Origin: Candidatus Zixiibacteriota bacterium
GTDB taxonomy: Bacteria > Zixibacteria > MSB-5A5 > GN15 > JAAZOE01
Assembly (NCBI GenBank): GCA_030668485.1
Contig: DAOUTW010000030.1
Location: 1-50,742, forward strand
DNA: 50,742 nt
Direction of reading: 5' to 3'
The notes under the pieces are model-generated. The model was not told where the DNA came from. It made no database searches and saw only the letters and a list, made by a program, of their open reading frames with translations. Both the position numbers and the translations under genes were made by a program. How positions within the stretch are numbered: the stretch's first letter is position 1; every line of letters begins with the position of its first letter. Of the stretch, positions 24,444 to 50,742 are shown piece by piece.

Positions 24444-24461
24444 TGAATTGCGAGATATGGC

Positions 24462-27557: not shown

Positions 27558-28020
27558 CGCTATCCTCGGTGGCTGTCTGGATCGCTTCGACTATTTTTTG
27601 GTATCCAGTACATCGGCATAGATTGCCTGAGATCGCCCTCCGGATTTCACTCTCTTCTGGATGCGGATTGCGTCGGAGCAGTTCCGTTGTGGTCATTAAC
27701 ATGCCGGGCGTGCAATATCCGCATTGTATGGCGCCCTGATCCACAAAGGCCTGCTGCAGGCGGTTTAGCTGGCCATTTTCCGCCAGGCTTTCGACCGTTT
27801 CGACTGTGCAACCATCGGCTTGAATGGCGAGAGTCAAACAACTGAAGGTAGCGACACCATCCAGAAGCACGGTGCAGGTACCGCAATCTCCAATGCCGCA
27901 GCCCTTCTTGGTGCCGGTCAAGCCCAAATCTTCGCGGATCAATTCGAGCAATGTTCGGCGAGGTTCCACCGCGACCTCATGCGATACACCATTTACTGTC
28001 AGCGAAATAATTTTTTTCAT
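27550..28020 (-). CDS. 2x[2Fe-2S] subunit of xanthine dehydrogenase-family enzyme
   Basis: A 156-residue electron-transfer subunit. The plant-ferredoxin-like [2Fe-2S] cluster ligands are Cys41, Cys46, Cys49 and Cys61 (GCGIGDCGTC). The second, all-helical [2Fe-2S] domain has Cys100 and Cys103 in CGYCTPGM and Cys135 and Cys137 in CRCTGY. Length fits HcrC/CoxS-type subunits. It starts four bases before the FAD-subunit stop (ATGA overlap) and overlaps the Mo-subunit start, so the three subunits are translationally coupled. Confidence 0.93.
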   Translation of the reverse strand: MKKIISLTVNGVSHEVAVEPRRTLLELIREDLGLTGTKKGCGIGDCGTCTVLLDGVATFSCLTLAIQADGCTVETVESLAENGQLNRLQQAFVDQGAIQCGYCTPGMLMTTTELLRRNPHPEESEIRRAISGNLCRCTGYQKIVEAIQTATEDSDE

Positions 28021-30462: not shown

Positions 30463-31587
30463 ATGTTTACGAAGTTTTTTGACTGGTATGAGAAACGGCA
30501 CGATTACGCACGGGAATGGATAGCCAAAAACAACGGCGAAGTTATGGGGTGCTTTTGCAGCTATGTTCCCGAGGAACTGGTTTATGCCGCCGGGCATTTG
30601 CCGCACCGGATGCTTGGTTCTCATGAGCCGCAGGATGTCACCGAGCCGTTCATTTTCGGCATGTTTTGCCCGTTTTGCCGCGATGTTCTGGCTCAGGGGT
30701 TGAAAGGCCGCTATGATTATATGAAGGGGATTACGATTGCTCAATCCTGCCTTCATCTCAGACAGACGTTCACTTCCTGGAGAAATCATGTGGCGCATGA
30801 CTTCTCGCACTATATTTATATGCCGAACAAGGTTCAGACAGATCACGCCCGGCCTTACTACAACGCCGAACTGATCAAATACAAAGAAGCTCTGGAGAAA
30901 TGGACCGGTAAGGAAATCACTGAGGAATCTCTCAAGGACGCATGCGATCTTTACAACGAGAATCGTCAACTGATGCATGAGGTTTACGATCTCCGCAAAG
31001 GTCCGGACCCGAAAGTGACCGGACTTGAGGCTATGGTCATGGTAGCGTCGTCATTCATGGTTGACAAGAAAGACCATAACGCCGAACTGAAACGGATTCT
31101 GCCGGAGCTGAAATCCCGCAATTTGAATCGGGATACCGGAGCGCGATTGATGATTGTCGGTTCGGAAGACGACGATACCAAATTTATCAAGATGGTGGAA
31201 TCGGTCGGCGCCACGGTGGTGGTCGACGATCATTGCACCGGATCAAGGTATTTCTGGAACAGCACCGAGTTTACCGGCAACCTGATGCAGGATATCGCCA
31301 ATCGGTATATCGACCGGGTTCCATGCCCCACCAAGGATTGGGAGGAGCGATCAAGGTTCCCCCATATTCTGAAGCTCGCTCATGATTTCAATGTCGAAGG
31401 GGTCATCATGATCCAGCAGAAATTCTGCGACCCGCATGAGTGCGACATGGTTCCCCTTAAAGAATTTCTTGCCGCAAACGATCTTCCGACCCTCTTCCTG
31501 GAATTTGACGTGACCGTACCGATCGGACAGTTCCGAATCAGGGTGGAAGCGTTTTTGGAAATGCTTGGAGTCGAGGAATTATTTTAG
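30463..31587 (+). CDS. bzdN: class I benzoyl-CoA reductase, BzdN/BcrC-type subunit
   Basis: A 374-residue subunit of the ATP-dependent, dearomatising benzoyl-CoA reductase, in the HgdB/BcrC family. Cluster-ligand candidates are Cys30/Cys32 (GCFCSYVPEEL), Cys69/Cys72 (FCPFC) and Cys96 (AQSCLHLR); a later QKFCDPHECD motif is also typical. Length fits BzdN (about 383) and BcrC. Together with BzdO it holds the active-site 4Fe-4S cluster that reduces benzoyl-CoA to cyclohexa-1,5-diene-1-carbonyl-CoA. AGGAGG lies five bases upstream of the ATG. Cytoplasmic and oxygen-sensitive. bcrC/badD names would be equivalent. Confidence 0.92.
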   Translation: MFTKFFDWYEKRHDYAREWIAKNNGEVMGCFCSYVPEELVYAAGHLPHRMLGSHEPQDVTEPFIFGMFCPFCRDVLAQGLKGRYDYMKGITIAQSCLHLRQTFTSWRNHVAHDFSHYIYMPNKVQTDHARPYYNAELIKYKEALEKWTGKEITEESLKDACDLYNENRQLMHEVYDLRKGPDPKVTGLEAMVMVASSFMVDKKDHNAELKRILPELKSRNLNRDTGARLMIVGSEDDDTKFIKMVESVGATVVVDDHCTGSRYFWNSTEFTGNLMQDIANRYIDRVPCPTKDWEERSRFPHILKLAHDFNVEGVIMIQQKFCDPHECDMVPLKEFLAANDLPTLFLEFDVTVPIGQFRIRVEAFLEMLGVEELF

Positions 31588-31609
31588 GCCGTGGGCCAAA
31601 GGAGAATAG

Positions 31610-32932
31610 ATGGCTTTATATAAAACAGAACCACTGAAATGCTGGCCGAAGGCCAAGGAACTGCGGCTCAAATATTATAAAGACTATCAGGAAGCCCGCA
31701 GCAAGGGTGGCCTTCGGTGGACCGGGGGCGCCTGGTCATTCGATGCCATACCGGCCGGCCTGGGGCGCGATGTTTACAACGTCACCGGCGAACCCTACGG
31801 AGCCTCTCTGGCTTTCGATAAAAAGTTGTCGATGGAGTGCATGGAAGCAACGGAAGCCAAAGGCTGGGCCCGCGATTTGTGCAGCTACATGCGCAACTAC
31901 TGGGGCTCGATGTATCTGGGTAAATATGCCTTCGGCGGCGAATATCCCGAACCGGATTTTTGTTTCCAGGACCATATTTGCTGCAGCCATGCCAAATGGT
32001 ATCAGCATGTGGCCGAATACAAGAGGATTCCGTATTTCTGCATCGACGTTTCGGTCGGTCCTTATAAAGATGTCGATGAAAACCGGCTGATGTTTGTCGT
32101 CAACCAGATGCACGAATCGATCGAATGGCTGGAGAAAACAACCGGGCGTAAATATCAGGACGAGCTTTTGATTGAGGCGGTCGAGAATGAACTGCGTTCG
32201 ACCTCCACCTGGGCGGAAATCTGTTATCTCAACATGAACAAACCGGCCCCGCTCGATGAAAAAACGATGTATTCGCTCTACGTGCATGGCACTCTGGCCA
32301 AGCATAACAAAGAAATCGCCGACTTCTACGAGGAACTCCGCGACGAGGTCAAGTATCGGGTAGAAAATCATATCGCCGCGGTGCCGAACGAACGATGCCG
32401 TCTGATGTCCGACACCCAGCCACCCTGGGGATTTTTGAAGGTCTTCCGTTACCTTGAGCAATTCGGAGCGGTATCGATCGGGTCGCTCTATACTTTCGGC
32501 CTGATAGGCATATGGGAAGACAAGCCCGACGGCACCTGGGGCCCAAGAACCACGCCGATGCAGAAAGGCGAAACGATCACCACTCGCGATCAGGCCTTGA
32601 GAGTTCTGGCCGATTGGAATCTGTCCAAACCGGAGTGGCAGCATTTTTATGATCCCAACCTCAAGACCAAGATGATGCTCCAGATCGTCAAGCAGTGGGA
32701 ATTGGATGGCGTCATGCTGCATCTCAATCGCGGTTGCGAAGGTCTTTCGTGTGGAATCATGGAAAACCGTCACGGGATCGCCGAGGCCGGCGTTCCGGTG
32801 ATGACCTTCGAAGGCAATATGGGCGATGAGCGCGAATTCGACGAAAAACGGGTGATGACCAGAATCGATTCCTTTATGGAAACTCTGGAACTCGATATAA
32901 TGGATGAATCCGCAGCTAAGGCCTCATCCTGA
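31610..32932 (+). CDS. bzdO: class I benzoyl-CoA reductase, BzdO/BcrB-type subunit
   Basis: The larger, 440-residue partner of BzdN in the catalytic heterodimer, matching the usual 440-450 aa of BzdO/BcrB. Visible landmarks are the N-terminal [20 protein letters not shown] segment (positions about 33-52), [14 protein letters not shown] (about 118-131), [13 protein letters not shown] (about 264-276) and [17 protein letters not shown] near residue 375. Cys residues in the last two segments are likely cluster ligands. Ribosome site GGAG precedes the ATG, 22 bp after bzdN. Confidence 0.92.
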
Positions 32933-32986
32933 TGAATAAGACTCAAAGACTAAACCGGAAGGTTTGATCGAGATAGAGGAGGATTA

Positions 32987-33760
32987 ATGATTACCGCTGG
33001 AATAGATATGGGTTCCAAATATATCAAAGTGGTTATTCTCAAAGATGGAACGGTCCTCGGCCGAGCCATGGAAACTACCGGGTTTGAACCGGTCGAATCG
33101 GCCTCGAGGTGCCTGGATAAGGCGATCAAGGAGGCCGGTGTCGAAATGTCGGAGATTGATCACACAACCTCCACCGGAGCCGGCCGCAAAGTGGCCCCCA
33201 AGACAGATTCCGACATTACCGATGTCGGCGCCGCAGCCAAGGGCGTTGTTAACCTGGAAAAAAATATCCAAACCGTAATTGATATCGGCGCCGAGGAAGG
33301 TCGAGGGATCAAGATCGAAGCCGACGGCAAAGTTGTGGACTTTGCGGTCAATGAGAAATGCGCTGCCGGGGCCGGGGCTTTTGCCGAAGCGATGTCCCGC
33401 GCTCTGGAGGTTTCCATTGATGAATTCGGTCAGTTGTCGTTGAAATCGGACAAGGCTATTCCCATGAACGCTCAATGCGCGGTATTCGCCGAGAGCGAAG
33501 TGGTATCGCTGGTGCATGCCAAAACACCGAAGCACGATATCGCACGGGCGGTTCATGATGCCATTGCCAGCCGGATTGTATCGATGGTCCGGCGCGTCGG
33601 TATTAATGAAAGTGTGGCGTTGATCGGAGGCGTATCCCATAACCCCGGCTTTGTGGATTCCCTGAAACGCGCGCTTGAAACTGAAGTGATTATCCCCGAG
33701 AACCCGGATTATATCGGCGCCCTGGGCGCTGCGATCACTGCTAGCGAAAGGACCAAGTGA
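32987..33760 (+). CDS. bzdP: benzoyl-CoA reductase ATPase subunit, BzdP/BcrD-type
   Basis: A 257-residue ASKHA-fold ATPase subunit of the electron-activating module, which couples hydrolysis of ATP to reduction of the catalytic dimer. The phosphate-1 loop AGIDMGSKYIKVVIL (4-18), the adenosine-side segment LIGGVSHNP and the cluster-ligand cysteines Cys125 (NEKCAAGAG) and Cys164 (NAQCAVFAES) are present. The phosphate-2 loop reads DIGAEE (99-104) rather than DIGGQD, a variation I associate with the BcrD/BzdP branch. The short length indicates the bzd-type (two short ATPase subunits) and not the bcr type with a long BcrA. Its end overlaps the next gene by four bases. Confidence 0.88.
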   Translation: MITAGIDMGSKYIKVVILKDGTVLGRAMETTGFEPVESASRCLDKAIKEAGVEMSEIDHTTSTGAGRKVAPKTDSDITDVGAAAKGVVNLEKNIQTVIDIGAEEGRGIKIEADGKVVDFAVNEKCAAGAGAFAEAMSRALEVSIDEFGQLSLKSDKAIPMNAQCAVFAESEVVSLVHAKTPKHDIARAVHDAIASRIVSMVRRVGINESVALIGGVSHNPGFVDSLKRALETEVIIPENPDYIGALGAAITASERTK

Positions 33761-34647
33761 TGACTGAAAAGACCAAGGAATTCTGGCGCTGGAAAGAATA
33801 CAACTGGCACGATGAAGCCAAAGACCCCAAGGATGTCGAGACTATCAGTGCCGGTGTCGATGTCGGTTCGGTCAGTTCGCAAGCCGTGATTTTGCTCGAT
33901 GGCGAGCTTTATGCATATTCAAATATGCGCACCGGGTCGGACAGCCCCAACAGCGCCATCAATGCCATGAACTGGGCCATGGAAAATACCGGCCTGACTA
34001 TGGACGATCTACACTATACTGTGGGAACCGGCTACGGGCGGGTCAATGTACCGTTCTCCGACCGGGCTATCACTGAAATAGCATGCCATGCCCGGGGTGG
34101 CAACACAATGTACGGCCCGACGGTCAGGACCATCCTCGATATGGGCGGCCAGGACTGCAAAGTCATTCTCTGCGATGAAAGAGGCAAAGTTAAAAACTTC
34201 CTGATGAATGACAAGTGCGCCGCCGGGACCGGCCGCGGGATGGAAGTTTTTGCCGATTTGCTGGCCGTATCCATCGAGGAGGTCGGCGAGTTATCGCTTG
34301 ATGTCGAAGAAGAACCTCCTCCGGTGTCATCGACCTGCGTGGTTTTTGCCAAGTCGGAAGCCTCTTCTCTGCTTCGTGACGGATGGTCGAAAAAGCGCGT
34401 GCTGGCAGCCTACTGCTCGGCTATGGCTCATCGGGTGGTCTCGCTGCTGGAACGAGTCGGAGTGGAAAAAGATTTTGCCATTACCGGCGGTATCGCCAAA
34501 AACAGTGGCGTGGTGGTTCGGTTGGAACGGGAACTGAAGCTTACCTCCCTGAAATCGAAGTATGATACCCAGATCGCCGGAGCACTCGGAGCCGCCCTTT
34601 TCGCCAAAGCCCTGGTGGAAAAACAGCGAAAGAAGGTCGCTCAGTGA
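33757..34647 (+). CDS. bzdQ: benzoyl-CoA reductase ATPase subunit, BzdQ/BcrA-type
   Basis: A 296-residue ASKHA-fold ATPase, partner of BzdP. An N-terminal extension of about 30 residues rich in Trp and acidic residues precedes AGVDVGSVSSQAVIL (32-46). The phosphate-2 loop is DMGGQD (128-133), and the bridging-cluster cysteines are Cys154 (NDKCAAGTGRG) and Cys194 (STCVVFAKSE). The length matches BzdQ (about 300 aa). The start overlaps bzdP (ATGA) and its stop overlaps the ferredoxin start (GTGA), showing strict co-expression. Confidence 0.9.
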   Translation: MMTEKTKEFWRWKEYNWHDEAKDPKDVETISAGVDVGSVSSQAVILLDGELYAYSNMRTGSDSPNSAINAMNWAMENTGLTMDDLHYTVGTGYGRVNVPFSDRAITEIACHARGGNTMYGPTVRTILDMGGQDCKVILCDERGKVKNFLMNDKCAAGTGRGMEVFADLLAVSIEEVGELSLDVEEEPPPVSSTCVVFAKSEASSLLRDGWSKKRVLAAYCSAMAHRVVSLLERVGVEKDFAITGGIAKNSGVVVRLERELKLTSLKSKYDTQIAGALGAALFAKALVEKQRKKVAQ

Positions 34648-39197: not shown

Positions 39198-40412
39198 ATG
39201 AAAGAGGCGGCTCCGAGGTTTGCCGAAGCCAGAATCCCATATGGCACATGGGGTAGCAGTTATTTTCCGGCCTGGCAAACATCTGCCCTGGCAGAAGTAA
39301 ATATTGGCCAGTTTGCCGGCGAGGCAATGAACCGAATCATGGGGATTAGGAATATTCCGACCAGTGTGCTGGATTATCTTATTATCGGATCAACCATTCC
39401 CTGGCATTGGAAATTTTGGACGGCCCCGCTGGTGGCCAGTTGCATGGGCCGGAGAATTCCCGGTTATCATATGGAACAGGCCTGCGCCACCGGATTGCAG
39501 GCTGTTATTTCAGCGGCTGCCGAAGTGCAGGGAGGTTCCAACGACGTCGTGGGAGTCTTGACATTCGACCGGACGAGTGATTCTCCCGTCGGTGTTTTCC
39601 CGGAACGTCGCGACTATCAGAGGACAAAGCCACTCGCCGATGTCTGGGACAATTTCGGATTTGACCCGGCAACCGGTAATGCCATGATAGCATGTGCCGG
39701 TATCGCGGCCCGCAAACATAAAAGCGACCGCAGGGAAACCGATGAACTGGCCTTCTATCGCTATGATCAATATTTCAAGGCCAAAGATTCCGGGTTCCTT
39801 GATCGCGTTCTGATCCCGTTGGATGTCTTAAATATACAAGGGCGATTTCTTGGTCGTATAGATGACGATCTGGGCGTCCGCAGATTAACACCGGATGCTT
39901 TGCGGGGCATGTTTGAACTCGACACCTGTATCACGGCCGGAACTCAGACTCACGCCTCCGACGGTATGGCCACCTTGCTGGTGACCGGCAAAGATAAAGC
40001 CCCTGAACTCAGCTCACGACCTGAAATCGACATTCAAATAATAGCCAAAACCGAGGTAAGAACTCAACCGAGCCTGATGCCGGAAGCCCCGGCCCTGGCG
40101 GTCCAGAAACTTTTGGGCAAAACGGGCCTGACTATGGACGACATGGTGGTGGTCAAAAACCATAACCCGTTTGCTGTCAACGACGTCATTTTTGCCAAAG
40201 TGCTAAATTATGACTGGAAAAAAATGAACAACACCGGCTGCCCGCTGGTATGGGGGCACCCCCAGGGACCGACCCTGACCAGGGTGCTGATAGAAGCTTT
40301 GGAGGAGGCGGTAGATATAGGCGGAGGATATGTGTTGGTCTTTGGCTGCGCGGCCGGCGATGTCGGTATTGCGGCTGTCTTTAAGGTGACGGATGGAGGG
40401 AAACAGAAATGA
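39198..40412 (+). CDS. divergent thiolase (acyl-CoA acetyltransferase family)
   Basis: A 404-residue thiolase-fold enzyme that would cleave a 3-oxoacyl-CoA with CoA. All catalytic positions are recognisable but the surroundings are divergent: nucleophile Cys96 in QACATGLQA, His322 in KNHNPFAVND, His354 in WGHPQGPT (normally GHPLGA), and Cys384 in FGCAAGD (normally CIGGGQG). HASDGMATLLV (252-262) is also typical. It overlaps the following hydratase/dehydrogenase fusion by ATGA. In this cluster a role in cleaving 3-oxopimelyl-CoA to glutaryl-CoA and acetyl-CoA is plausible; it is a prediction from context. Confidence 0.82.
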   Translation: MKEAAPRFAEARIPYGTWGSSYFPAWQTSALAEVNIGQFAGEAMNRIMGIRNIPTSVLDYLIIGSTIPWHWKFWTAPLVASCMGRRIPGYHMEQACATGLQAVISAAAEVQGGSNDVVGVLTFDRTSDSPVGVFPERRDYQRTKPLADVWDNFGFDPATGNAMIACAGIAARKHKSDRRETDELAFYRYDQYFKAKDSGFLDRVLIPLDVLNIQGRFLGRIDDDLGVRRLTPDALRGMFELDTCITAGTQTHASDGMATLLVTGKDKAPELSSRPEIDIQIIAKTEVRTQPSLMPEAPALAVQKLLGKTGLTMDDMVVVKNHNPFAVNDVIFAKVLNYDWKKMNNTGCPLVWGHPQGPTLTRVLIEALEEAVDIGGGYVLVFGCAAGDVGIAAVFKVTDGGKQK

Positions 40413-42493
40413 AATCACTGAGACAGCCTACACTGGAAACTTTGGGACTGGGCAATATCCTCGGTATATTTCAAAATGGTAAATTGCCCGCTGAGGCCGG
40501 AGATCTGGTAGACCGGATATTTGGCAAGCCGGGTGCGCGTTGTGCAATGGTGGTCTCCGGGGCCAATGGAATAGTCGGCGCCGGCAAAACCATACAACTC
40601 GCCTCCCGCTTAATACCGTTCGACGTTCCTATCGTTGGTCTGGATTTCCCTGGATCTCCCGATGGTATCGGCGGTCAATATCAGGCCTTGAAAGGTTTCT
40701 TCGGGCAAAAACGCGCCGACCAGATCATGGCCAATATTATCAGGTTGAATTATGATGGAAAAAACCTCCCGTCCGAACTCAAAAAACTAAAGCCCCGCTT
40801 TTTGCTTGAAGCGATACCGGAAATCCTGGAAATCAAAAAGGCTCATTACGCGGCGTTTCGGGAAGCCTTCCCGACCATAGAAATTCGTTCGGTCACATCC
40901 GGCTTTCCAAGTTCGGAACTTGGCGTCGGAATTGCCCATCCGGCCTTCCCACACAACATTAATAAGGTCTGGGAAATTGTCGAAGACGATGTCTCCCCGA
41001 TCACACAACTCTTTTGGGCTCTGGGCCTGACGCCTATGCCGGTTAGCGACCACTGGTCTTTCGTTCTGGATGTTCTTTTTTGCGGTTTGACTCTGGCGGG
41101 AATGAGGTATCATCGGGCTTCGAACATGCCTTTCTGGAAAATTGATAAATTCATCCGGAAATTCATGGGGCCGAATCCTTTCCGAGCCCACGACGCCATC
41201 GGCGCCAAAGGAGCTAATTTCCTGACCTGGTCCTGCCTCTATCATCTCAGCCAGAAATATGGCGACCTGTTTACACCTACGCCGGAACTCGACGAGCGCC
41301 AGGAAACGGGCCAGAACTGGTATCCCCTGAACCATTTCAGACCACTGGTGGATTGGGCTATGGATGATGGCGATGAGGACGAGTTCCGGAGCTGGACTGT
41401 GGGACCGCTGGTCCAGATGACCAGTCTGATGCTTCATGAGAACCGGGCCCACCTGTCTCATATCAATGCTATCGGCGAACTGTGTGCTCAATTCCGAAGC
41501 GGAGTACCGGCCTTCATCCGCAATATGGGTGTTGAGGCTGCGATTAAAAGCGTTGAGTCTTATCATCGCCTGCATCCCGAAGCCGCCGGCAGCGGATGGT
41601 ATCCCGATGTCTTCAACAAAGTCGAAGAACCGGAATGGCAGCAGCTTTATGTCAATGCCGAGCATGACGGCAAAGTGGGCGCTATCTCCATCGGAAGAGA
41701 AAGTTATAATTCCGATGTTGACGCCGAGTTGAATCGCGCCATCGACTGGCTGCGGGCCGAAGGAATAGACCGAGTGATAGTAACCGGTGATTTCCATCTG
41801 GCCTCACAGATGGTCGGCGCCGATACCAGTGACTTTTTCCCGGCCCTGAGTGAAGGCGAAAAGGGTTTACAAATTTCTACCTCCTGGTCGCAGACCGCCA
41901 GACGGCTTAATAATGATTTCAAGGTTTCAGTCGGATTTATAAACGGCAAACGGTGTATGGGCGGCATGCTGGAACTGCTGATGCATTGCCATTATCTCGT
42001 TTCCGAGAAGAGCAGCTCTCTGGGTATGCCGGAAGTAACGCTACCGGTCGTTCCCGGAATGGAAGGCTGTCACTGGCCGTTTAGAAAAGCCAAAACTGAC
42101 GACATACCGAAATTGTTGAATCTGTTGCTGACCGGAAAACAGCTCAAGGCTAAGGAGACAGTAGGCTGGCTGGTTGACTTTGCAGGAAGTTTTGACGAAG
42201 CCCTGCCATTGGTATGGAAAATCGTCACCGAGGGCGAGCAGAGTTCGGTTTCCAGAAGAACAGTTGTGGAAAAATCGATTAATATCCCGACTGAGGTCAA
42301 CCTGCCCGATTCCGGTAACCCGGCAACTGAGGCAGCTCGCAAGGCGATTATGAATTGCATAAAAGATTCATGCGGGACATCATTGGCTGATGCTCTGGCG
42401 ATTCAGGCCGGGCATTCGGCCGACTTTATGAGTTCCGACTATTGCCGGAGAGGCGTAATCGGGGCAACCTGTGCAAAAGTGATGAATGTATAG
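40409..42493 (+). CDS. 3-hydroxyacyl-CoA dehydrogenase/enoyl-CoA hydratase fusion, reversed FadB order
   Basis: A 694-residue bifunctional beta-oxidation protein. The N-terminal NAD-binding part has a modified glycine motif SGANGIVGAGK (50-60), then LEAIPEILEIKK (133-144) and His177 in IAHPAFPHN, the position of the catalytic His in 3-hydroxyacyl-CoA dehydrogenases. The C-terminal crotonase part has both hydratase glutamates: Glu522 in GGMLELL and Glu542 in LGMPEVTLPVVPG. The dehydrogenase-first order is opposite to FadB and is like archaeal fusions. The middle (270-420) is unrecognised. With the coupled thiolase it probably oxidises 3-hydroxypimelyl-CoA after ring opening. Confidence 0.8.
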   Translation: MKSLRQPTLETLGLGNILGIFQNGKLPAEAGDLVDRIFGKPGARCAMVVSGANGIVGAGKTIQLASRLIPFDVPIVGLDFPGSPDGIGGQYQALKGFFGQKRADQIMANIIRLNYDGKNLPSELKKLKPRFLLEAIPEILEIKKAHYAAFREAFPTIEIRSVTSGFPSSELGVGIAHPAFPHNINKVWEIVEDDVSPITQLFWALGLTPMPVSDHWSFVLDVLFCGLTLAGMRYHRASNMPFWKIDKFIRKFMGPNPFRAHDAIGAKGANFLTWSCLYHLSQKYGDLFTPTPELDERQETGQNWYPLNHFRPLVDWAMDDGDEDEFRSWTVGPLVQMTSLMLHENRAHLSHINAIGELCAQFRSGVPAFIRNMGVEAAIKSVESYHRLHPEAAGSGWYPDVFNKVEEPEWQQLYVNAEHDGKVGAISIGRESYNSDVDAELNRAIDWLRAEGIDRVIVTGDFHLASQMVGADTSDFFPALSEGEKGLQISTSWSQTARRLNNDFKVSVGFINGKRCMGGMLELLMHCHYLVSEKSSSLGMPEVTLPVVPGMEGCHWPFRKAKTDDIPKLLNLLLTGKQLKAKETVGWLVDFAGSFDEALPLVWKIVTEGEQSSVSRRTVVEKSINIPTEVNLPDSGNPATEAARKAIMNCIKDSCGTSLADALAIQAGHSADFMSSDYCRRGVIGATCAKVMNV

Positions 42494-42563: not shown

Positions 42564-43808
42564 ATGAGCGCGGACAAAAAAGTCACTTTCAAAAAGATCA
42601 AAGCCACCGGCCAGATGAGAAAAATCATGGCCGATTATTTCTACGACCTGGATGGCGCTGTCAAGGACGAGACGCAAAAGGTTGCCTGGTGCACCAGTGT
42701 CGGCCCCGCCGAACTCCTGCTCAGTCTCGGATTCAAAGTCTATTACCCGGAAAATCATGCCGCCATGCTGGGAGCCACCCGTCAGGCCACCAATTATATC
42801 CCGGTCGCCAACGCCATCGGTTATTCCCCCGATATCTGTTCTTACCTGACCAGCGATATCGGCGCCTACCTCAAAAAGGAAACGCCACTATCGCGGGCTT
42901 ATGAAGGGATTGAGGGCATCCCCAAACCGGATGTGTTGGTGTTCAATACCAACCAGTGCCGCGATGTACAGGACTGGCTGGCCTGGTATTCCCGCGAGTG
43001 GAATATACCCCTGATGGGCGTATCGACCTTTCGCAATATCGGAGAAATTTCCGATGAGGTCCTGGCCGGGATTGTCCAGCAACTCAAAGACCTGGTTCCG
43101 AAACTGGAAAAAATCTCCGGCAACAAATTCGATATCGACAAATTCCGGGAAACCATGGCCGCATCAAAAGAATGCACTGAATTGTGGGAAAAGGTCCTGG
43201 AAACGAATATGGCTTCTCCGGCGCCAATGAGCTTTTTCGACGCCACCATTCATATGGGTCCTGCTGTCGTTCTCAGAGGTTCGCAGACAGCTATCGACTA
43301 TTACGAACTGCTCTTGAAGGAAATGGAAGAACGACTCGCCGACGGCGTGGGAGCGGTGGAGGATGAAAAATTCCGTTTGTATTGGGAAGGAATGCCGATC
43401 TGGGGCAAACTCCGCGATATGTCCGAACTTTTTATCGGACTGAATACTGCTGTCATCGCGTCGACCTACTGCAATAGCTGGATATTCAAGGCCTTCGATC
43501 CCGCCGATCCGTTCCTGAGTACGGCCCGGGCCTACACTGAAATCTTTATCGTCAGGGACGAGGAATACAAGGAAAAGTATATCGAGGATGTCGTCCGGAA
43601 CTTCAAGCTGGATGGAATCCTGTTCCATGATTCCAAAACCTGCCCAACCAATTCCAATAACCGCTACGGCATGCCGGAACGACTCGAAAAGCGGCTCAAT
43701 ATTCCTTCTCTTACGATAAACGGCGATTTAAATGACCTGCGCTGTTATTCGGAAGAGCAGGCCAAAACTCAGATAGAGGCCTTTATTGAACAATTGGAGG
43801 CCATGTAG
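42564..43808 (+). CDS. orphan benzoyl-CoA reductase/2-hydroxyacyl-CoA dehydratase-family subunit
   Basis: A 414-residue HgdB/BcrB-family protein that stands alone, without the usual paralogous partner subunit, directly before its own ATPase activator. The three positions that hold the 4Fe-4S cluster in the family are Cys43 (AWCTSVGPAELL), Cys92 (DICSYLTSDIG) and Cys132 (TNQCRDVQDW). Extra cysteines are Cys204, Cys303, Cys360 and Cys394. One subunit plus one activator is the arrangement of the double-cubane cluster proteins described from Carboxydothermus, which act as homodimers; a novel aryl- or acyl-CoA reductase or dehydratase is the other option. The substrate is unknown. AGGAG precedes the ATG. 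Confidence 0.8.
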   Translation: MSADKKVTFKKIKATGQMRKIMADYFYDLDGAVKDETQKVAWCTSVGPAELLLSLGFKVYYPENHAAMLGATRQATNYIPVANAIGYSPDICSYLTSDIGAYLKKETPLSRAYEGIEGIPKPDVLVFNTNQCRDVQDWLAWYSREWNIPLMGVSTFRNIGEISDEVLAGIVQQLKDLVPKLEKISGNKFDIDKFRETMAASKECTELWEKVLETNMASPAPMSFFDATIHMGPAVVLRGSQTAIDYYELLLKEMEERLADGVGAVEDEKFRLYWEGMPIWGKLRDMSELFIGLNTAVIASTYCNSWIFKAFDPADPFLSTARAYTEIFIVRDEEYKEKYIEDVVRNFKLDGILFHDSKTCPTNSNNRYGMPERLEKRLNIPSLTINGDLNDLRCYSEEQAKTQIEAFIEQLEAM

Positions 43809-43845
43809 AGACTTCTTCCGGTAGAAATGGGTGTGATAAATCCTA

Positions 43846-44619
43846 ATGGAATTTTTTGCAGGAATTGATATTGGCGCTTCCACGACCAAAGCGGTAATAA
43901 TAAACACAAAAGGGGAAGTGATCGGCTATTCCGTGACCGATTCCGGTGCCGATTTCGAACTTGCTGCCAACCAGACCTTCGGGCAAGCCTGCGAGCAGGC
44001 CGGTTGTGCATTGGATGATTGCATTGTGGCATCGACGGGATACGGAAGGAATAATGTCCCCTTCGCCAGTTTTGCCAAAACTGAAATCAGTTGTCATGCC
44101 GAGGGCAGTTTCCATAATTTCCCCCGGGCTCATATCCTGATCGATATCGGCGGGCAGGACAGCAAAATTATAAAAATCGATAACGACGGCAAACGAATCA
44201 ATTTCAGGATGAACAGGAAATGTGCCGCCGGGACCGGCGCTTTCCTGGAAGAAATCGCCAATCGCCTCAAGATCAGGTTGGATGAACTGAACGGTCTGGC
44301 GGAAAAGGCACAGGATAACGTCCAGATAAGCAGTTACTGCACGGTTTTTGCCGCAACGGAAATCTTATCCCGAATCAGAGAAGGGTCTGGTGTACCGGAA
44401 ATTATCAAAGGCATTTTCACATCGGTGATAAAAAGAGTTCTTGAGATGGATTCCATGGAAGGGGATCTGGCCGTAAGCGGGGGGGTAGTGGCTCATAATC
44501 CTTTTCTGGTGAAAATGTTTGAGGAAAAAACAGGGAAAAAAATATTCGTGCCGCCCCTTCCCCAGTTGACGGGCGCCCTGGGAGCGGCTCTTTATGCTAG
44601 AAAGGCAAAGGAGGTCTAA
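43846..44619 (+). CDS. HgdC/BadG-type ATPase activator
   Basis: A 257-residue ASKHA-fold ATP-dependent activator that injects low-potential electrons into an HgdB-family enzyme. The phosphate loops are AGIDIGASTTKAVII (5-19) and DIGGQD (100-105); the cluster-bridging cysteines of the homodimer are Cys126 (NRKCAAGTGAF) and Cys165 (SSYCTVFAATE). Unlike bzdPQ, it is a single gene, so it should be a homodimer as in 2-hydroxyglutaryl-CoA dehydratase component A. It lies 37 bp after the orphan catalytic-type subunit and is its obvious partner. The next gene starts on the base after its stop codon. Confidence 0.88.
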   Translation: MEFFAGIDIGASTTKAVIINTKGEVIGYSVTDSGADFELAANQTFGQACEQAGCALDDCIVASTGYGRNNVPFASFAKTEISCHAEGSFHNFPRAHILIDIGGQDSKIIKIDNDGKRINFRMNRKCAAGTGAFLEEIANRLKIRLDELNGLAEKAQDNVQISSYCTVFAATEILSRIREGSGVPEIIKGIFTSVIKRVLEMDSMEGDLAVSGGVVAHNPFLVKMFEEKTGKKIFVPPLPQLTGALGAALYARKAKEV

Positions 44620-46707
44620 ATGCTCGACGGCTTGTTCAAGCCCAGATCGGTGGCTATTATCGGCGCTTCCAATAATCCTTTGAGTATTGGACATATTGTC
44701 ATCCAGAATCTCGTTGATCATAATTTCAGGGGACCGATCTACCCCATCAATCCCAAGTCCAATTGCATTAAGAGCTTTAAGGCCTATCCTTCCATCAGCG
44801 ATGTCCCGGATGAGATTGACCTGGTAAATATATCAATCAAGAATACGCTGGTCCCTATCGTTCTGGAAGAGTGCGGCAAGAAGGGCGTCAAGTTTGCCAT
44901 CGTTCATACCGCCGGATTCAAGGAAGTGGGCGAAAAAGGCAGGGAACTCGAAAAGCAGATCGTCGAGATCGCCCATAAGCACGGCATGAGGATTTACGGC
45001 CCCAACTCCCAGGGTATCCAGAATTCCGACCCCGAAGTCTCGGTCTATGCCAATTTTACTTTTGTCCCCCAGATCCCCGGAAATATATCGATTGTGGCCC
45101 AGAGCGGCGGTGTCGGTGAGACCTTCAAACTACAGTTATACAATATTGGCAAAGGCACCCGGATGTATTCCAGCTTCGGGAATGAAGCCGATGTGACCAT
45201 GAATGAAATTATCGACTATTATGGCCAGGACGAGGATACCAAGGTCATCATGACTCATATTGAAACCCTCAAAGATCCCGCCGGTTTCCTCGAAGTCGCC
45301 AGCCGGGTCACGAAGAAAAAACCCATCCTGGCATTGAAGACCGGTAGAACCTCCGAAGGAGTCGCGGCGGTAGCATCACACACCGGTTCACTTATAGAGC
45401 AAGATACTCTGGCCGATGCGATCTTTGAAAAAAGTGGCGTGCTTCGCTTCCATGACCAGCAGGAAATGATTGAGGCGGCTATTGCTTTCTCAGATCAGCC
45501 GATTCCGAAATCGGATAAGATTGTCATCGTCACCAACACCGGCGGTCCGGCTATCATTGCCGTCGATGAATGTATTTCAAGGGGCCTTCAACTGGCGGAG
45601 TTGAGTCCCGATACCGGCAAAGCCCTGGGCGAACTCCTCTTTTCGGAAGCGATCGTCTCCAATCCGGTCGATGTCATCGCCACCGCCGGAGCCAAGGAAT
45701 ATGGCGGTACGGTCGAACTACTCCTGAAAGATCCCAATATCGATTCGCTGATCCTGAATTTTGTCACACCTCCCTTTGTCGATTGTGAAGCGGTTGCCCG
45801 CAAGCTGGGTGAAATCGGGTCCACCGCCGACAAGCCGATAGTTTGTATCATCCTGACCATTGAGGAAAAATTCGGCAAAGTTATCCGCCTCATCCGAGAA
45901 AGTGGCGTTCCAGTTTTCGATTTCCCCGAGTCGGCCTCGAAAGCTCTGGCTGCCATGATAAAGTATGGCCAGGTCCTGCAAAGAGAAGAGCCTGAGTATA
46001 TTAAATATGACTGCGACACGGCAAAGGCTAAAGATATCATTGCACGCCACAGCGGCAGTGGCAAATTCCTGCCGCAGGCCGATGTTTTTGACCTCCTCGG
46101 TTGCTACGGGATACCGATCGCCAAAGTCGTAAGAGTCGAAAACAAGGATGAACACAAGAAGGCGGCGCAAAAACTCACCTATCCGCTGGTACTGAAAGTT
46201 GATTCCGAAGATGTGGTACATAAATCGGATGCCGGCGGCGTTATTCTCGACATCGAGGATGAATCTGCACTCTTAAAGGCCTTTGATGAAATGGCCGGGA
46301 AATTTGCGCAATACAAGCCCGCCTTTATCGTTCAGGAGCAACTGACCGACGGCAGGGAAGTGATCATAGGGTCCAAGGCGAGCGAGGGCGTGGCTCCGAT
46401 GGTGATGTTCGGACTCGGTGGAGTATTTGTCGAGACGTTGAAGGATGTCCAGTTCAGGCTGGCGCCCCTCTCCCGGCAAGATGCCGATAATATGATCACC
46501 GCCATCAAAGGCTATCCCATTCTGAAGGGAACCCGAGGAGAAAAACCGGCGGATATTGATAAATTGGCAGAAGTGTTGATACGGATATCCCAACTGGCCG
46601 GCGATTTCCCTGAAATCGAAGAAATGGACCTCAATCCTGTCTTCGCTTTCGAGGAAGGAAAAGGTGTCGCGGTTGTCGATGCCCGCCTAAAAATACTGGG
46701 TAAGTAG
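44620..46707 (+). CDS. acyl-CoA synthetase (ADP-forming), alpha-beta fusion
   Basis: A 695-residue NDP-forming acyl-CoA synthetase that interconverts acid, CoA and ATP with acyl-CoA, ADP and phosphate. The alpha half begins KPRSVAIIGASNNP (7-20, CoA-binding Rossmann) and has the phosphorylated-His site His254 in VASHTGSL. The beta half (from about 485) is an ATP-grasp domain with PLVLKVDSEDVVHKSDAGGV. Fused alpha-beta proteins of about 700 aa are typical. It is coupled to the activator gene. It could conserve ATP from an acyl-CoA end product, or activate an aromatic acid at a lower cost than AMP-forming ligases. Which direction it runs is not visible. Confidence 0.9.
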   Translation: MLDGLFKPRSVAIIGASNNPLSIGHIVIQNLVDHNFRGPIYPINPKSNCIKSFKAYPSISDVPDEIDLVNISIKNTLVPIVLEECGKKGVKFAIVHTAGFKEVGEKGRELEKQIVEIAHKHGMRIYGPNSQGIQNSDPEVSVYANFTFVPQIPGNISIVAQSGGVGETFKLQLYNIGKGTRMYSSFGNEADVTMNEIIDYYGQDEDTKVIMTHIETLKDPAGFLEVASRVTKKKPILALKTGRTSEGVAAVASHTGSLIEQDTLADAIFEKSGVLRFHDQQEMIEAAIAFSDQPIPKSDKIVIVTNTGGPAIIAVDECISRGLQLAELSPDTGKALGELLFSEAIVSNPVDVIATAGAKEYGGTVELLLKDPNIDSLILNFVTPPFVDCEAVARKLGEIGSTADKPIVCIILTIEEKFGKVIRLIRESGVPVFDFPESASKALAAMIKYGQVLQREEPEYIKYDCDTAKAKDIIARHSGSGKFLPQADVFDLLGCYGIPIAKVVRVENKDEHKKAAQKLTYPLVLKVDSEDVVHKSDAGGVILDIEDESALLKAFDEMAGKFAQYKPAFIVQEQLTDGREVIIGSKASEGVAPMVMFGLGGVFVETLKDVQFRLAPLSRQDADNMITAIKGYPILKGTRGEKPADIDKLAEVLIRISQLAGDFPEIEEMDLNPVFAFEEGKGVAVVDARLKILGK

Positions 46708-46770: not shown

Positions 46771-48189
46771 ATGAATTTGGTGCCACTCTCTATTGTCTGC
46801 ATTTATATCATCCTCCTGTTCCTCATCACCTGGATGACGCGGCGCCTTAGCCGGGGAGGAATGATTGCCTACCTTCTGGCGGGAAGGAGCCTTCCCTACT
46901 GGGTTATCGCTCCTCTCCTGACCGGCCTGGCTATCGGTGGAGCATCCACCATCGGGGTGGCTGAACGGGCTTATACGGTCGGGATTTCGGCCGGATGGTA
47001 CAATGCCGCCTGGGCGGCTGGAGCACTGCTGGTTGGTTTGACTGCGGCGCGCCGCTATCGACAATTGGAGATCACCACTCTGCCTGAGCTTTTTGAAAAA
47101 CACTATAATGTATCCGGCCGGGTAGTCGGTGTTATAGGGCAACTTACCCTGCAACTGGTAATCACATCTTTGCAGTACGTGGCCGGAGGAGCTATCCTGT
47201 CGTCGCTGCTCCCCGGAGTTTTCAGCTTCCAGACCGGAATGCTGGTCACCGCTGTCGTTTTTGTCGGCATAACTCTGATAGGAGGCTTTTGGGCGGCCGG
47301 ACTGACCAACATTATCAATGTGACCTTCATATATGCGGGAGTCATCCTGGGAGCCTTCATGGCTGTCGGGAAGGTCGGAGGATTTAAGAAGATTATCTCA
47401 ACCCTGCCCCCTCAGCATCCCGGTTTCGATCTGGGAGCCATCGGCTGGGGGTTGATCATTGCTTGGTTTGTGGTCATGTGTACGACTGTCTTTTCGGTTC
47501 AGTCCATAGCCCAAATAAGCTTCGCCGCCAAAGATAGCGGCACGGCCAGAAAAGGCTTTATCCTGGGAGCTATTATTATCCTACCGGTCGGATTCATCAG
47601 CGCCATTATCGGCGTCGCCGCATCTATCATGCATCCGGGTATTATCGCCACCGAGGCTCTTCCCCGGACAGTTCTAAGTTTGAGCCCGGTTGTGGCCGGG
47701 ATTATCCTGGCCGGACTCTGGGCTGCCGACGTATCCACCGCATCCGCATTGCTGGTGGGAAGCGCGACACTGGTGGTAAGTGATATAATTAAGAGATTTG
47801 TTGCTCCCGATTTGAGTGAAAAAAAGGAACAGATAATCTCCCGGATTTCGGTCCTGGTGCTTAGTGTTTTTACATACATACTGGCTATCTCGGTTTCGGG
47901 AATCCTCAAGACTTTGCTTATCGGCCTGACCCTGACGACCGCTTATACTCTCATAACCCTGATGACGATATTCTGGCCCCAGGTATGCCGGCGTTCACAT
48001 GCCACCTGGACATTGCTTATGGCAATGCTGGCCCTGGCGCTCTGGCTTATTTTCCCTCAGCTTCCCGCCTTTTTCAAAGATATCAGTCTGCCGCACCCCA
48101 TATTTTTCTGCTGGATGGTAAGCCTTATTACATTTTTTATCGTGTTTTTGGTGGATAAAAGGAAAATTCAAGTGCACATCTTGAAATAG
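46771..48189 (+). CDS. sodium:solute symporter family transporter
   Basis: A 472-residue membrane protein with about 13 hydrophobic segments, of the SSS (sodium/solute symporter) family. The first helices include YLLAGRSLPYWVIAPLLTGLAIGGASTIG (positions about 34-62), with the family R-x-L-x3-V pattern and the unwound Gly/Ser-rich Na+-binding region. It sits in the aromatic degradation cluster between the acyl-CoA synthetase and the ring-opening genes, so an aromatic or other carboxylate is the likely substrate; this is inference. The start at 46771 begins directly with a membrane helix, as expected. Confidence 0.88.
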   Translation: MNLVPLSIVCIYIILLFLITWMTRRLSRGGMIAYLLAGRSLPYWVIAPLLTGLAIGGASTIGVAERAYTVGISAGWYNAAWAAGALLVGLTAARRYRQLEITTLPELFEKHYNVSGRVVGVIGQLTLQLVITSLQYVAGGAILSSLLPGVFSFQTGMLVTAVVFVGITLIGGFWAAGLTNIINVTFIYAGVILGAFMAVGKVGGFKKIISTLPPQHPGFDLGAIGWGLIIAWFVVMCTTVFSVQSIAQISFAAKDSGTARKGFILGAIIILPVGFISAIIGVAASIMHPGIIATEALPRTVLSLSPVVAGIILAGLWAADVSTASALLVGSATLVVSDIIKRFVAPDLSEKKEQIISRISVLVLSVFTYILAISVSGILKTLLIGLTLTTAYTLITLMTIFWPQVCRRSHATWTLLMAMLALALWLIFPQLPAFFKDISLPHPIFFCWMVSLITFFIVFLVDKRKIQVHILK

Positions 48190-48228: not shown

Positions 48229-49179
48229 ATGGTTGAAAATTCCAATGGTGACCAGATGCGAGTCGGTGTTATAGGCATGGGTCCGGTCGGAACGGTGTTG
48301 GCGGCTCAGTTTGCCGAAGCCGGAGCTTATGTTATTCCCTGTGATATAATTCCAAGAAAAATGGACAAAATCAAGAGATCCGGTATCCGCCTGAAAAATG
48401 TCATCGATAAAAAAGTCGAGATTCCTGATGTGTCCAGCACCGTTAAGGGGCTGGCATCGTTTGATCTGGACCTGGCCATCGTCTGTGTCAAAACACCTGC
48501 CCTGAAAAAGGTCGTCAGCCAATTGAAGGAGATTGCACCGGACAAGATGTATGTTATGTGCGCTCAAAACGGTATCGATAACGAGGTGGATGTTGCCCGG
48601 GAATTTGGAGACAGTCGAACATTGCGAATGGTCGTCAATTATGCCGGCAGTATGAGTGATTCCAATACGGTTCATGTCAGTTTTTTCAATCCCCCGAACT
48701 ACGTCGCGGCCTTGTCCCCCAAAGGGGATGAGTTTGCGAAACAGATCGTCGAGCTTATGAATTCTGTGGGTCTGGAATCGGAGATTCCGGAGGATATTCA
48801 GGATTATGTATGGGAAAAGGCCATTCTCAATGCAGCCCTTAGCGCCGTCTGTGCCATAACACGAAAAACCATGAAAGATGTCATGGATTTCCCCTACACC
48901 CTGAGTTTGGTTGAGGCGATCATCGATGAGTCGGTGCTGGTAGCGGAAAAAGAAGGGATCGAACTGGGCAAAAAATTCCGGCGCTTCTGTATTCGGTATT
49001 TGAAAAATGCCGGGCATCACCGCCCTTCGATGTTAATCGATTTGGAAAATGGGAGCCGCACCGAAATTGACCAGTTGAACGGCAAAATCGCCCAATATGG
49101 ACGCAAGCACTGTCAACCTACTCCGATAAATCAATGCGTGACGGCCCTCGTTCACCTGATGGAGTATGCGGTAGAATAA
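48229..49179 (+). CDS. ketopantoate reductase (PanE/ApbA)-family dehydrogenase
   Basis: A 316-residue NAD(P)-dependent 2-oxoacid reductase-fold protein. The nucleotide-binding motif is GVIGMGPVG (13-21); the catalytic lysine region is WEKAILNAALSAVCAITRKTM (positions about 197-217), and a late LENGSRTEIDQLNG matches the family consensus around the substrate-binding Glu. Genuine PanE makes pantoate for CoA synthesis, but catabolic clusters often carry relatives with other 2-hydroxy or 2-oxo acid substrates. Its position directly before the Had gene favours a pathway role. GGGAG before the ATG supports this start; the MRVGV at residue 10 is a possible later one. Confidence 0.82.
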   Translation: MVENSNGDQMRVGVIGMGPVGTVLAAQFAEAGAYVIPCDIIPRKMDKIKRSGIRLKNVIDKKVEIPDVSSTVKGLASFDLDLAIVCVKTPALKKVVSQLKEIAPDKMYVMCAQNGIDNEVDVAREFGDSRTLRMVVNYAGSMSDSNTVHVSFFNPPNYVAALSPKGDEFAKQIVELMNSVGLESEIPEDIQDYVWEKAILNAALSAVCAITRKTMKDVMDFPYTLSLVEAIIDESVLVAEKEGIELGKKFRRFCIRYLKNAGHHRPSMLIDLENGSRTEIDQLNGKIAQYGRKHCQPTPINQCVTALVHLMEYAVE

Positions 49180-49209: not shown

Positions 49210-50262
49210 ATGCAAAATATAGCAGCCTATCAAATGACCGGCAAAGATAAACCCTTCGAGCGAGTTGACTATTCGGCCGAGGTGGGGCCGGATGATGCTC
49301 TGGTCGAAATCGCCGGCTGCGGGGTCTGTCATACCGATCTCAGTTTCTGGCATTATGGAGTCCCCACCCGCCATGAATTACCTCTGGTACTGGGACATGA
49401 AATCAGCGGCACGGTTATCGAGGGTCCCTCCGAACTAAAGGGAAAACCCGTAATAATACCGGCTGTCATACCTTGCGGTGAATGTGAATTGTGTCGCGGA
49501 GGACGCGGGAATATCTGCCAAAAACAGAAGATGCCCGGCAATGATTTTCATGGCGGTTTCGCCAGTCATATTGCCGTTCCGGCCGGAATGCTCGCGACCG
49601 TTCCCGATGCCGCCCTCTCCGATCACACCCTGGCCGAACTGTCAGTTATCGCCGATGCCGTCTCGACTCCATATCAGGTAATCGTGAAGAGCGATCTTAA
49701 GCCGGGTGATTTTGCCATTGTTATCGGTGTCGGTGGCATAGGAATTTATACCGCACAATTGGCCAATATCCTCGGAGCCAAAGTCCTGGCTATCGATATC
49801 GACCAGCAAAAGCTCGATCAGCTTTCCGAAATCGGGGTGACGGCCACGTTAAACCCGAAGGGAATGGACTTCAAAGAAATTAAAAAAAAGGTCAAAGGGA
49901 TATGCAAGGAATTGGGCGCGCCCCCGCATAGCTGGAAGGTCTACGAGACCTCCGGCACCAAACCGGGCCAGGAACTGGCCTTCGGGCTGCTGGGAATTGC
50001 CGGAACCCTTTCCATTGTAGGGTTTACGCTTGATAAGCTGGAGGTCCGGCTGAGTAACCTGATGGCCTTCGATGCTAATGTTATCGGAACCTGGGGATGT
50101 AAACCGGAATTGTACGCCGATGTGATAAACCTGGTGGCCGAAGGTAAACTGAAATTGAAACCGTTCACCGAAGCTTTCCCGCTGTCCAGTATCAATGACA
50201 TCTTTCAACAAACGCTGGAACACAAACTGATCAAACGATCGGTTCTGGTGCCCGATTTTTAA
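49210..50262 (+). CDS. had: 6-hydroxycyclohex-1-ene-1-carbonyl-CoA dehydrogenase
   Basis: A 350-residue zinc-dependent alcohol dehydrogenase-type enzyme that oxidises 6-hydroxycyclohex-1-ene-1-carbonyl-CoA to the 6-oxo compound in the benzoyl-CoA pathway. Catalytic zinc ligands are Cys37 and the His63-Glu64 pair (LGHE), the structural zinc is held by Cys89, 92, 95 and 103, and the NAD motif is GVGGIG (about 173-178). The stretches EIAGCGVCHTDL and QKMPGNDFHGGFASHIAVPA are as I know them from Thauera Had, which makes the identification specific. GGAGG precedes the ATG. The next gene, the hydrolase, is its pathway successor. Confidence 0.93.
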   Translation: MQNIAAYQMTGKDKPFERVDYSAEVGPDDALVEIAGCGVCHTDLSFWHYGVPTRHELPLVLGHEISGTVIEGPSELKGKPVIIPAVIPCGECELCRGGRGNICQKQKMPGNDFHGGFASHIAVPAGMLATVPDAALSDHTLAELSVIADAVSTPYQVIVKSDLKPGDFAIVIGVGGIGIYTAQLANILGAKVLAIDIDQQKLDQLSEIGVTATLNPKGMDFKEIKKKVKGICKELGAPPHSWKVYETSGTKPGQELAFGLLGIAGTLSIVGFTLDKLEVRLSNLMAFDANVIGTWGCKPELYADVINLVAEGKLKLKPFTEAFPLSSINDIFQQTLEHKLIKRSVLVPDF

Positions 50263-50302: not shown

Positions 50303-50742
50303 ATGAGTTTCGAACTTGCAAGTCATAATCTTGTCGACGTTGATTTCAAGGAAATCATCTACGAACTGCGACCATGTCTGGATGCCAAGGGCAACCCGGT
50401 TGAGGGACTGCACAATGCCTGGATATTACTGAATAATCCCAAACAGTACAACTCATACACAACTGCCGCAGTCAAGGAAGTCATCCTCGCCTTTCGCCAG
50501 GCTTCCAATGATCGTTCGGTCGTGGCTGTCGTTTTTTCGGCGGTGGGCGACAAGGCGTTCTGCACCGGCGGCAATACCAAGGAATACGCTGAATATTATT
50601 CCGGGCGGCCGCTGGAATACAAGCAGTACATGCGCCTGTTCAACGACATGATCGACTCGATCCTGCGGTGCGACAAACCGGTCATCAATCGGGTGAACGG
50701 TATGCGCATCGCGGGCGGGCAAGAGATCGGCATGGCCTGCGA
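50303..50742 (+). CDS. oah: 6-oxocyclohex-1-ene-1-carbonyl-CoA hydrolase, 5' part
   Basis: The first 146 codons (no stop before the window end) of a crotonase-family hydrolase that adds water and opens the ring to 3-hydroxypimelyl-CoA. AAGGAGG lies just upstream of the ATG at 50303. Recognisable segments are NNPKQYNSYTT (residues 44-54), DKAFCTGGNTKEYAEYYSG (about 83-101) and NRVNGMRIAGGQEIGMAC (about 128-145), which match Oah/BzdY/BamA rather than ordinary enoyl-CoA hydratases. It is 41 bp after had. The gene is expected to need about 1.1 kb, so about two thirds are outside the window. Confidence 0.93.
   Translation, partial: MSFELASHNLVDVDFKEIIYELRPCLDAKGNPVEGLHNAWILLNNPKQYNSYTTAAVKEVILAFRQASNDRSVVAVVFSAVGDKAFCTGGNTKEYAEYYSGRPLEYKQYMRLFNDMIDSILRCDKPVINRVNGMRIAGGQEIGMAC

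Follow-up and report, generated by a model that had tools for sequence, protein, structure and literature searches.

The window, a 50,742-nucleotide contig of a Candidatus Zixiibacteriota bacterium (GenBank assembly GCA_030668485.1, contig DAOUTW010000030.1, positions 1 to 50,742 of the forward strand), encodes a 414-amino acid protein of the HGD-D superfamily that was dubbed LONE. We read LONE, at a probability of about two in three, as a homo-oligomeric radical (R)-aryllactyl-CoA dehydratase that arose from a catalytic alpha subunit and now does without the beta subunit. To our knowledge, every 2-hydroxyacyl-CoA dehydratase and class I benzoyl-CoA reductase characterised so far relies on a pair of unlike catalytic subunits, and relay or storage of the electron is ascribed to the beta subunit. 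LONE is real, is widespread in bacteria and archaea, and is a single-subunit version of this known superfamily; no description of single-subunit members of the family was found in the literature searched. The gene for LONE, that of its activase and the benzoyl-CoA reductase genes upstream are located as follows:

30463-34647, plus strand: bzdNOPQ, class I benzoyl-CoA reductase, a separate enzyme within the same catabolic block
42564-43808, plus strand: LONE, alpha-type HGD-D protein of 414 amino acids with no beta partner; putative single-subunit aryllactyl-CoA dehydratase
43846-44619, plus strand: ATP-dependent activase of the BadF/BcrA/HgdC type, 257 amino acids; best NCBIfam match TIGR00241 (acyl-CoA dehydratase activase domain)

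Examination of the open reading frames with Pfam and NCBIfam bore out the original prediction that one HGD-D protein with its own activase is encoded here, separately from a complete bzdNOPQ set. LONE belongs to the HGD-D superfamily (Pfam HGD-D, 2.9e-62), with a PF06050 score of 211.6 bits against a gathering score of 28.4, and the adjacent protein matched BcrAD_BadFG (1e-52) and scored 218.7 bits with TIGR00241, giving LONE the dedicated ATP-dependent activase that is typical of this superfamily. The bzdNOPQ genes lie approximately 8 kb upstream, and BzdN, BzdO and BzdQ are all above their NCBIfam cut-offs. The whole assembly (4.5 Mb, 99.95% complete) contains exactly three HGD-D genes, encoding BzdN, BzdO and LONE.

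Using a scan of one genome per species, LONE orthologs of 63-86% identity were found in Zixibacteria, Aminicenantes, Desulfobacterota, Geobacteraceae, Thermoplasmatota, Chloroflexi and other lineages, and approximately 140 LONE relatives were found across bacteria and archaea. A second HGD-D gene was present near LONE in none of the 82 orthologous loci, and an activase lay within 4 kb in 72 of them. The separate beta subunit that characterises HadBC, FldBC and HgdAB was absent from these loci and from several whole genomes, and one catalytic gene and one activase were found in place of the four different subunits of a class I benzoyl-CoA reductase. Among the next-closest relatives (31-40% identity), a beta gene was located within 4 kb in 20 of 20 fetched loci. 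Full-length matches in 198 Desulfobacterota genomes fell into two tiers, one of at least 54% identity (LONE) and one of at most 40%, and the divergent pair L012/L013 (about 50% identity) still fell inside the LONE clade. Relatives of LONE in plasmid records were all below 30% identity.

In seven genomes (G004, G065, G066, G171, G359, G342 and G351) LONE was the sole HGD-D gene. G004 is 97% complete, the one completeness figure for the seven, and G065 (locus L032) and G066 (L040) are single-chromosome metagenome-assembled genomes (MAGs). The closed isolate genome of Desulfococcus multivorans has only LONE and two double-cubane cluster proteins (DCCPs; 472 and 466 bits) as HGD-D genes. As these genomes encode no HGD-D protein besides LONE, it must be able to work without a beta subunit, which is therefore not needed. 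BzdN is the only beta-type HGD-D protein in the genome of the window and could in principle be borrowed by LONE as a beta subunit encoded elsewhere, but this reading is contradicted by the LONE-only genomes, including the two single-chromosome MAGs, and by the complete D. multivorans genome, and it is the most improbable of those considered here. As LONE is a single catalytic protein with its own private activase and never has a partner gene, it is probably homo-oligomeric and most likely a homodimer, the layout proposed in the original prediction.

Full-length LONE-type paralogs were observed within single genomes, three in Geobacter argillaceus (G060) and two in G062, which suggests that these paralogs differ in substrate. 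In G038 (C37:16130-23542; loci L013/L019), a two-subunit Mbd-like reductase and a separate activase for it are encoded some 4 kb away from LONE, and both kinds are therefore found in one locus.

HGD-D proteins are either of a catalytic alpha type (HadB, BzdO, MbdO) or of a beta type (HadC, BzdN, DCCP). LONE, described in the original prediction as an HgdB/BcrB-family protein, is by sequence, tree and predicted fold a catalytic alpha-type subunit and does not belong to the HgdB/DCCP (beta) type. Its best NCBIfam match is HadB at 227 bits (below the cut-off of 750), and the closest PDB sequence is the HadB alpha subunit (3o3m, 1.7e-49), followed by MbdO and BzdO. Its scores with the BcrB/BzdO equivalogs (TIGR02260, 170.5 bits against a cut-off of 486.55; TIGR03191, 96.5 against 448.6) place it outside the class I benzoyl-CoA reductases. 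An AlphaFold2 model of LONE made from 59 sequences, with a predicted local distance difference test (pLDDT) score of 91.2 and a predicted template modelling (pTM) score of 0.91, gave template modelling (TM) scores of 0.90 with HadB, 0.88 with BzdO, 0.87 with MbdO, 0.75 with DCCP and 0.62-0.71 with beta subunits.

In a tree of 50 proteins, the LONE orthologs formed one clade (100/100) on the alpha side, and the beta subunits together with DCCP were split from them with 100/100 support. The exact branching of LONE among the alphas had weak support, and the paired alphas grouped together in only 4% of bootstraps. Since the paired alphas did not form one group in the other 96%, the tree fits an origin of LONE from a paired alpha subunit by loss of the partner. 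Judged by this phylogeny, LONE forms a separate clade with full support, next to the paired alpha subunits; neither of the two observations that the original prediction had set against itself was made, as no partner gene was found and LONE fell outside the characterised two-subunit families.

The closest known system is HadBC/HadI of Clostridioides difficile (3o3m, 4eht). HadB matches LONE over its full length with 29% identity and shares the three cluster cysteines and the PEN motif with Glu63, and HadI (4eht) is closest to the activase of LONE (3.9e-53). LONE differs in having no HadC or other beta subunit, in two extra near-invariant cysteines (C43 and C303), and in its aromatic, rather than leucine-fermentation, context. 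The alpha-subunit fold (as predicted) and active-site Glu of the two-subunit dehydratases are thus found in LONE; since it lacks their second subunit, it was not filed as a member of HadBC/FldBC, though it probably works alike.

In BzdO the catalytic [4Fe-4S] cluster is bound by Cys95/128/380 and a water, and in BzdN an [8Fe-9S] double cubane is bound by Cys36/73/100/263/293/327 (PMC11971306). When LONE was aligned to BzdO and HadB, the predicted cluster ligands were C92, C132 and C360, the three-cysteine set of the superfamily, which was kept in 140 of 140 distinct orthologs. Cys43, Cys92 and Cys132 had originally been named as the family cluster cysteines; the second and third of these hold, but C43 is an extra cysteine and C360 is the third ligand by alignment. 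Among the further cysteines that had been singled out, C303 and C360 proved to be conserved and C204 and C394 did not. C43 was kept in 137 of 138 orthologs and C303 in 139 of 140, and both were present in all 16 LONE members of the tree and in none of the 26 paired alphas or the two BzdO sequences examined; these other sequences have mostly I, V, S or F at position 43 and mostly T at position 303. BzdN Cys263 is the aligned counterpart of C303, and C43 falls close to Cys36, a plausible match that is one residue off in an ungapped comparison. By homology, C43 and C303 would point into the active-site cavity and may serve as ligands of a second cluster, adjust the properties of the first or form part of the substrate pocket. 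Glu63 in the PEN motif is the counterpart of BzdO Glu65, and S45 is also kept; BzdO Trp46 and His131 are absent from LONE, as they are from HadB.

Five of the six double-cubane positions have a counterpart in LONE (C43, C92, C132, C303 and C360), and BzdN Cys293 has none, leaving LONE short of the six cysteines of an [8Fe-9S] double-cubane cluster protein. This overlap, the single catalytic gene with a single activase and the likely homodimer are shared with DCCP/DCCP-R (6eno, 7yyl), and on these grounds LONE could be a homodimeric DCCP-type reductase of small molecules, a likeness that had been raised in the original prediction. Such a reading is very unlikely. LONE scored 58.3 bits with the DCCP model NF040772, against a cut-off of 350, and its predicted fold is closer to HadB; DCCP groups with the betas (100/100) and has six cluster cysteines, whereas LONE is on the alpha side with five; and D. 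multivorans holds separate, true DCCPs.

LONE is part of an operon-like run of nine co-directional genes with gaps of at most 70 bases, which are, in order, those for the thiolase, crotonase protein, LONE, activase, synthetase, symporter, ApbA-family reductase, Had and Oah. Its remaining members are:

39198-40412, plus strand: thiolase, overlapping the next gene by 4 bases; presumed release of a benzoyl-CoA-type product and acetyl-CoA
40409-42493, plus strand: 694-amino acid protein with a C-terminal crotonase domain; presumed hydratase/dehydrogenase of side-chain beta-oxidation
44620-46707, plus strand: ADP-forming acyl-CoA synthetase, 695 amino acids; presumed maker of the 2-hydroxyacyl-CoA substrate
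46771-48189, plus strand: sodium:solute symporter, in the same operon-like run; presumed acid uptake
48229-49179, plus strand: ApbA/PanE (ketopantoate reductase) family protein; presumed arylpyruvate to (R)-aryllactate reductase
49210-50262, plus strand: Had, 6-hydroxycyclohex-1-ene-1-carbonyl-CoA dehydrogenase of the lower benzoyl-CoA pathway (TIGR03201, 448 bits, cut-off 338.65)
50318-50742, plus strand: Oah, 6-oxocyclohex-1-ene-1-carbonyl-CoA hydrolase, 5' part (TIGR03200, 242 bits); gene cut at the contig end

The 3' part of Oah opens contig C96 of the same assembly (G000:C96:2; TIGR03200, 373 bits), and IorA of this organism is encoded away from LONE, on contig C34. For the 694-amino acid protein four relatives were found; a structure prediction from five sequences reached a pLDDT of 40, and its N-terminal half looks like a very divergent 3-hydroxyacyl-CoA dehydrogenase.

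The ATG of the synthetase at 44620 begins on the base after the activase stop, as had been noted, and the proposal that LONE shares a substrate with the adjacent CoA ligase was supported; an ADP-forming acyl-CoA synthetase lay within 4 kb of LONE in 53 of the 82 loci. Across lineages the neighbours of LONE are CoA ligases, an ApbA-family reductase, thiolase, enoyl-CoA hydratase, 3-hydroxyacyl-CoA dehydrogenase (HCDH), IorAB, PaaK and Oah, and in the deepest lineage the gene order is CoA ligase, LONE, 2-oxoacid reductase, activase. The idea of a second ring reductase was not supported: with 2-oxoacid reductase, CoA ligases, IorAB and crotonase/HCDH/thiolase genes around it, LONE is more in keeping with a 2-hydroxyacyl-CoA dehydratase than with a reductase. 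A GlcD-type flavoprotein with a C-terminal CCG iron-sulfur part was observed directly before LONE, where the ApbA-family reductase sits in other lineages, at loci L043, L046, L047, L050, L053, L060, L061, L064, L065, L080, L088, L092 and L093.

LONE also co-occurs with the benzoyl-CoA pathway. Among 60 genomes around the organism of the window (its own order), Oah was present in 10 of 11 with LONE and in 0 of 49 others (Fisher 1.5e-10), and within-genus contrasts (g26, g32 and g40) agreed. Of 198 Desulfobacterota genomes, 23 had both LONE and Oah, 7 LONE only, 26 Oah only and 142 neither (Fisher 5.8e-11). This strong co-occurrence, the superfamily shared with benzoyl-CoA reductase, and the rank of MbdO and BzdO as the next best folds after HadB could also be accommodated if LONE were a single-subunit enzyme that reduces an aryl-, dienoyl- or enoyl-CoA at low potential, acting beside benzoyl-CoA reductase or replacing it. 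We consider this unlikely, since LONE genomes already have Bzd or, in D. multivorans as published, Bam (PMC5109826), HadB ranks first in sequence as well as in fold, LONE lacks BzdO Trp46 and His131, and the neighbours are 2-oxo/2-hydroxyacid and side-chain beta-oxidation genes. BzdNOPQ (8s02) and MbdONQP (9g87, 9gai) resemble LONE in the catalytic-subunit fold, the ATP-driven activase principle and the benzoyl-CoA-pathway context, but they have two catalytic and two activase subunits, and LONE is far below the BzdO/BcrB cut-offs. Neither the fold nor the likeness to HadB fixes the substrate, and in some LONE genomes no Oah was detected, so that LONE might be a single-subunit dehydratase for a non-aromatic 2-hydroxyacid such as lactate, 2-hydroxyglutarate or branched-chain 2-hydroxyacids. 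This is slightly less likely still, given that Had and Oah share its operon here, and given the IorAB and PaaK genes in several lineages, and the position of LONE in D. multivorans.

The LONE ortholog of D. multivorans (G227; 2.791 Mb, 56% identity) lies within the published phenylacetate/phenylpyruvate locus (L210/L211, 2.766-2.804 Mb). The genes there are ordered HCDH, a 680-amino acid HCDH-crotonase fusion, thiolase, response regulator, two kinases, three open reading frames (equated with the published TRAP transporter genes by size and position alone), two AMP-forming ligases, LONE, activase, ApbA-family reductase, ACT-domain protein, IorB and IorA. The ortholog with its activase, 2-oxoacid reductase, two ligases, IorAB, HCDH-crotonase fusion and thiolase thus resembles the system proposed here. 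Proteins of this region, including Hbd5, a hydratase and a thiolase, form specifically on phenylacetate and phenylpyruvate; D. multivorans grows on phenyllactate and is without PadB/PadEFGHI; and Dmul_C24850-70 were assigned to phenyllactate-phenylpyruvate conversion (PMC5109826). The authors placed the genes in a phenylglyoxylate route, unlike our reading, and described no dehydratase for it in the text; no candidate was named for the last step, from phenylglyoxylate to benzoyl-CoA, which the genome paper calls unclear (PMC5109826). Alpha-oxidation would have little use for a hydratase, a hydroxyacyl-CoA dehydrogenase and a thiolase, but these are the enzymes that cinnamoyl-CoA requires. The placement of LONE, activase and reductase between two CoA ligases and IorAB suggests that phenylacetate might be carboxylated to phenylpyruvate by IorAB in reverse.

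The reaction itself has already been imagined in the literature. A 2026 paper on benzene discusses a phenyllactyl-CoA dehydratase toward benzoyl-CoA and notes a singular FldB-like gene of 30% identity (PMC13416013); a description of a single-subunit family was not found. FldABC/FldI of Clostridium sporogenes, named in the same paper, is a phenyllactyl-CoA dehydratase with the reaction proposed here, (R)-phenyllactyl-CoA to cinnamoyl-CoA. By description, Fld has two subunits and a CoA transferase, FldA, whereas LONE has one subunit, a CoA ligase and an oxidative context leading from cinnamoyl-CoA to benzoyl-CoA.

Several points weigh against an aryllactyl-CoA dehydratase. The ApbA-family 2-oxoacid reductase was within 4 kb in only 19 of the 82 loci, many MAG contigs being short, and in 17 loci a GlcD-type flavoprotein was found near LONE in its place, an enzyme that would oxidise, not make, the 2-hydroxy acid. 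The N-terminal half of the 694-amino acid protein resembles HCDH weakly (hhalign E 0.0021, probability 13%). The P values for co-occurrence ignore shared ancestry, and Oah was not detected in 7 of the 30 Desulfobacterota LONE genomes, nor in G004. Gene counting, perhaps off by one, puts Dmul_C24850-70 at or next to LONE, its activase and the reductase, and the main text of that study does not state detection of LONE itself (PMC5109826). The homodimer and the cysteine positions are drawn from homology alone.

A ketyl-radical mechanism has been proposed for this superfamily. For LONE, ATP hydrolysis by the activase would drive a single low-potential electron into the [4Fe-4S] cluster that C92/C132/C360 bind, and the cluster would hand it to the thioester carbonyl of the bound (R)-2-hydroxyacyl-CoA, giving a ketyl radical. 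This radical would expel the alpha-hydroxyl, and after deprotonation the electron would return for reuse as the 2,3-enoyl-CoA leaves. Phenyllactyl-CoA and 4-hydroxyphenyllactyl-CoA are the likeliest substrates; the 2-oxoacid reductase (48229-49179) together with the CoA ligase (44620-46707) would provide them. The cinnamoyl-type product would pass to the crotonase/dehydrogenase protein (40409-42493) and then to the thiolase (39198-40412), yielding (hydroxy)benzoyl-CoA. The putative pathway as a whole would run from arylpyruvate through aryllactate, aryllactyl-CoA and arylacrylyl-CoA to beta-oxidation and (hydroxy)benzoyl-CoA, and on to Bzd or Bam.

A bolder extension, which we regard as unlikely, is that the LONE cluster is enlarged, with C43 and C303 binding a second iron-sulfur unit next to the catalytic cubane, such that a single subunit would unite the beta-type electron store and the alpha-type active site, and that phenylacetyl-CoA, in those sulfate and iron reducers that have PaaK-IorAB-LONE loci, would be reductively carboxylated by IorAB to phenylpyruvate and proceed through phenyllactyl-CoA and cinnamoyl-CoA to benzoyl-CoA, replacing the known alpha-oxidation.

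Four other regions of the window were also observed. At 18142-22528 (minus strand) are a molybdopterin oxidoreductase (892 amino acids; closest to PhsA thiosulfate reductase, 218 bits of 694), an NrfD-type membrane protein (325 amino acids) and a 222-amino acid open reading frame between them; this oxidoreductase could be respiratory. A three-subunit xanthine-dehydrogenase-type enzyme is encoded at 25188-29051 (minus strand), and its relatives co-locate with LONE in several Aminicenantes loci. Its molybdenum subunit is closest to 4-hydroxybenzoyl-CoA reductase (852 against 994.55 bits) and its FAD subunit prefers XdhB, so that its reading as a 4-hydroxybenzoyl-CoA reductase is no more than probable. 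Two neighbouring DUF364/DUF4213 putative heavy-metal chelation proteins lie beside the molybdoenzyme genes at 23670-25169, and a 1054-amino acid protein with an N-terminal DUF4062 domain, and no further domain recognised, is encoded at 13110-16274 (minus strand).

If our reading of LONE is true, an alpha-only enzyme with two extra near-invariant cysteines would represent the minimal form in which this radical chemistry works, and LONE with its activase would offer a simple two-protein study system. LONE also provides a testable explanation of the conversion of phenylpyruvate, phenyllactate and possibly phenylacetate to benzoyl-CoA without the full Pad set in D. multivorans and other anaerobes, and it would fill a published gap in the anaerobic degradation of phenylalanine-type compounds.

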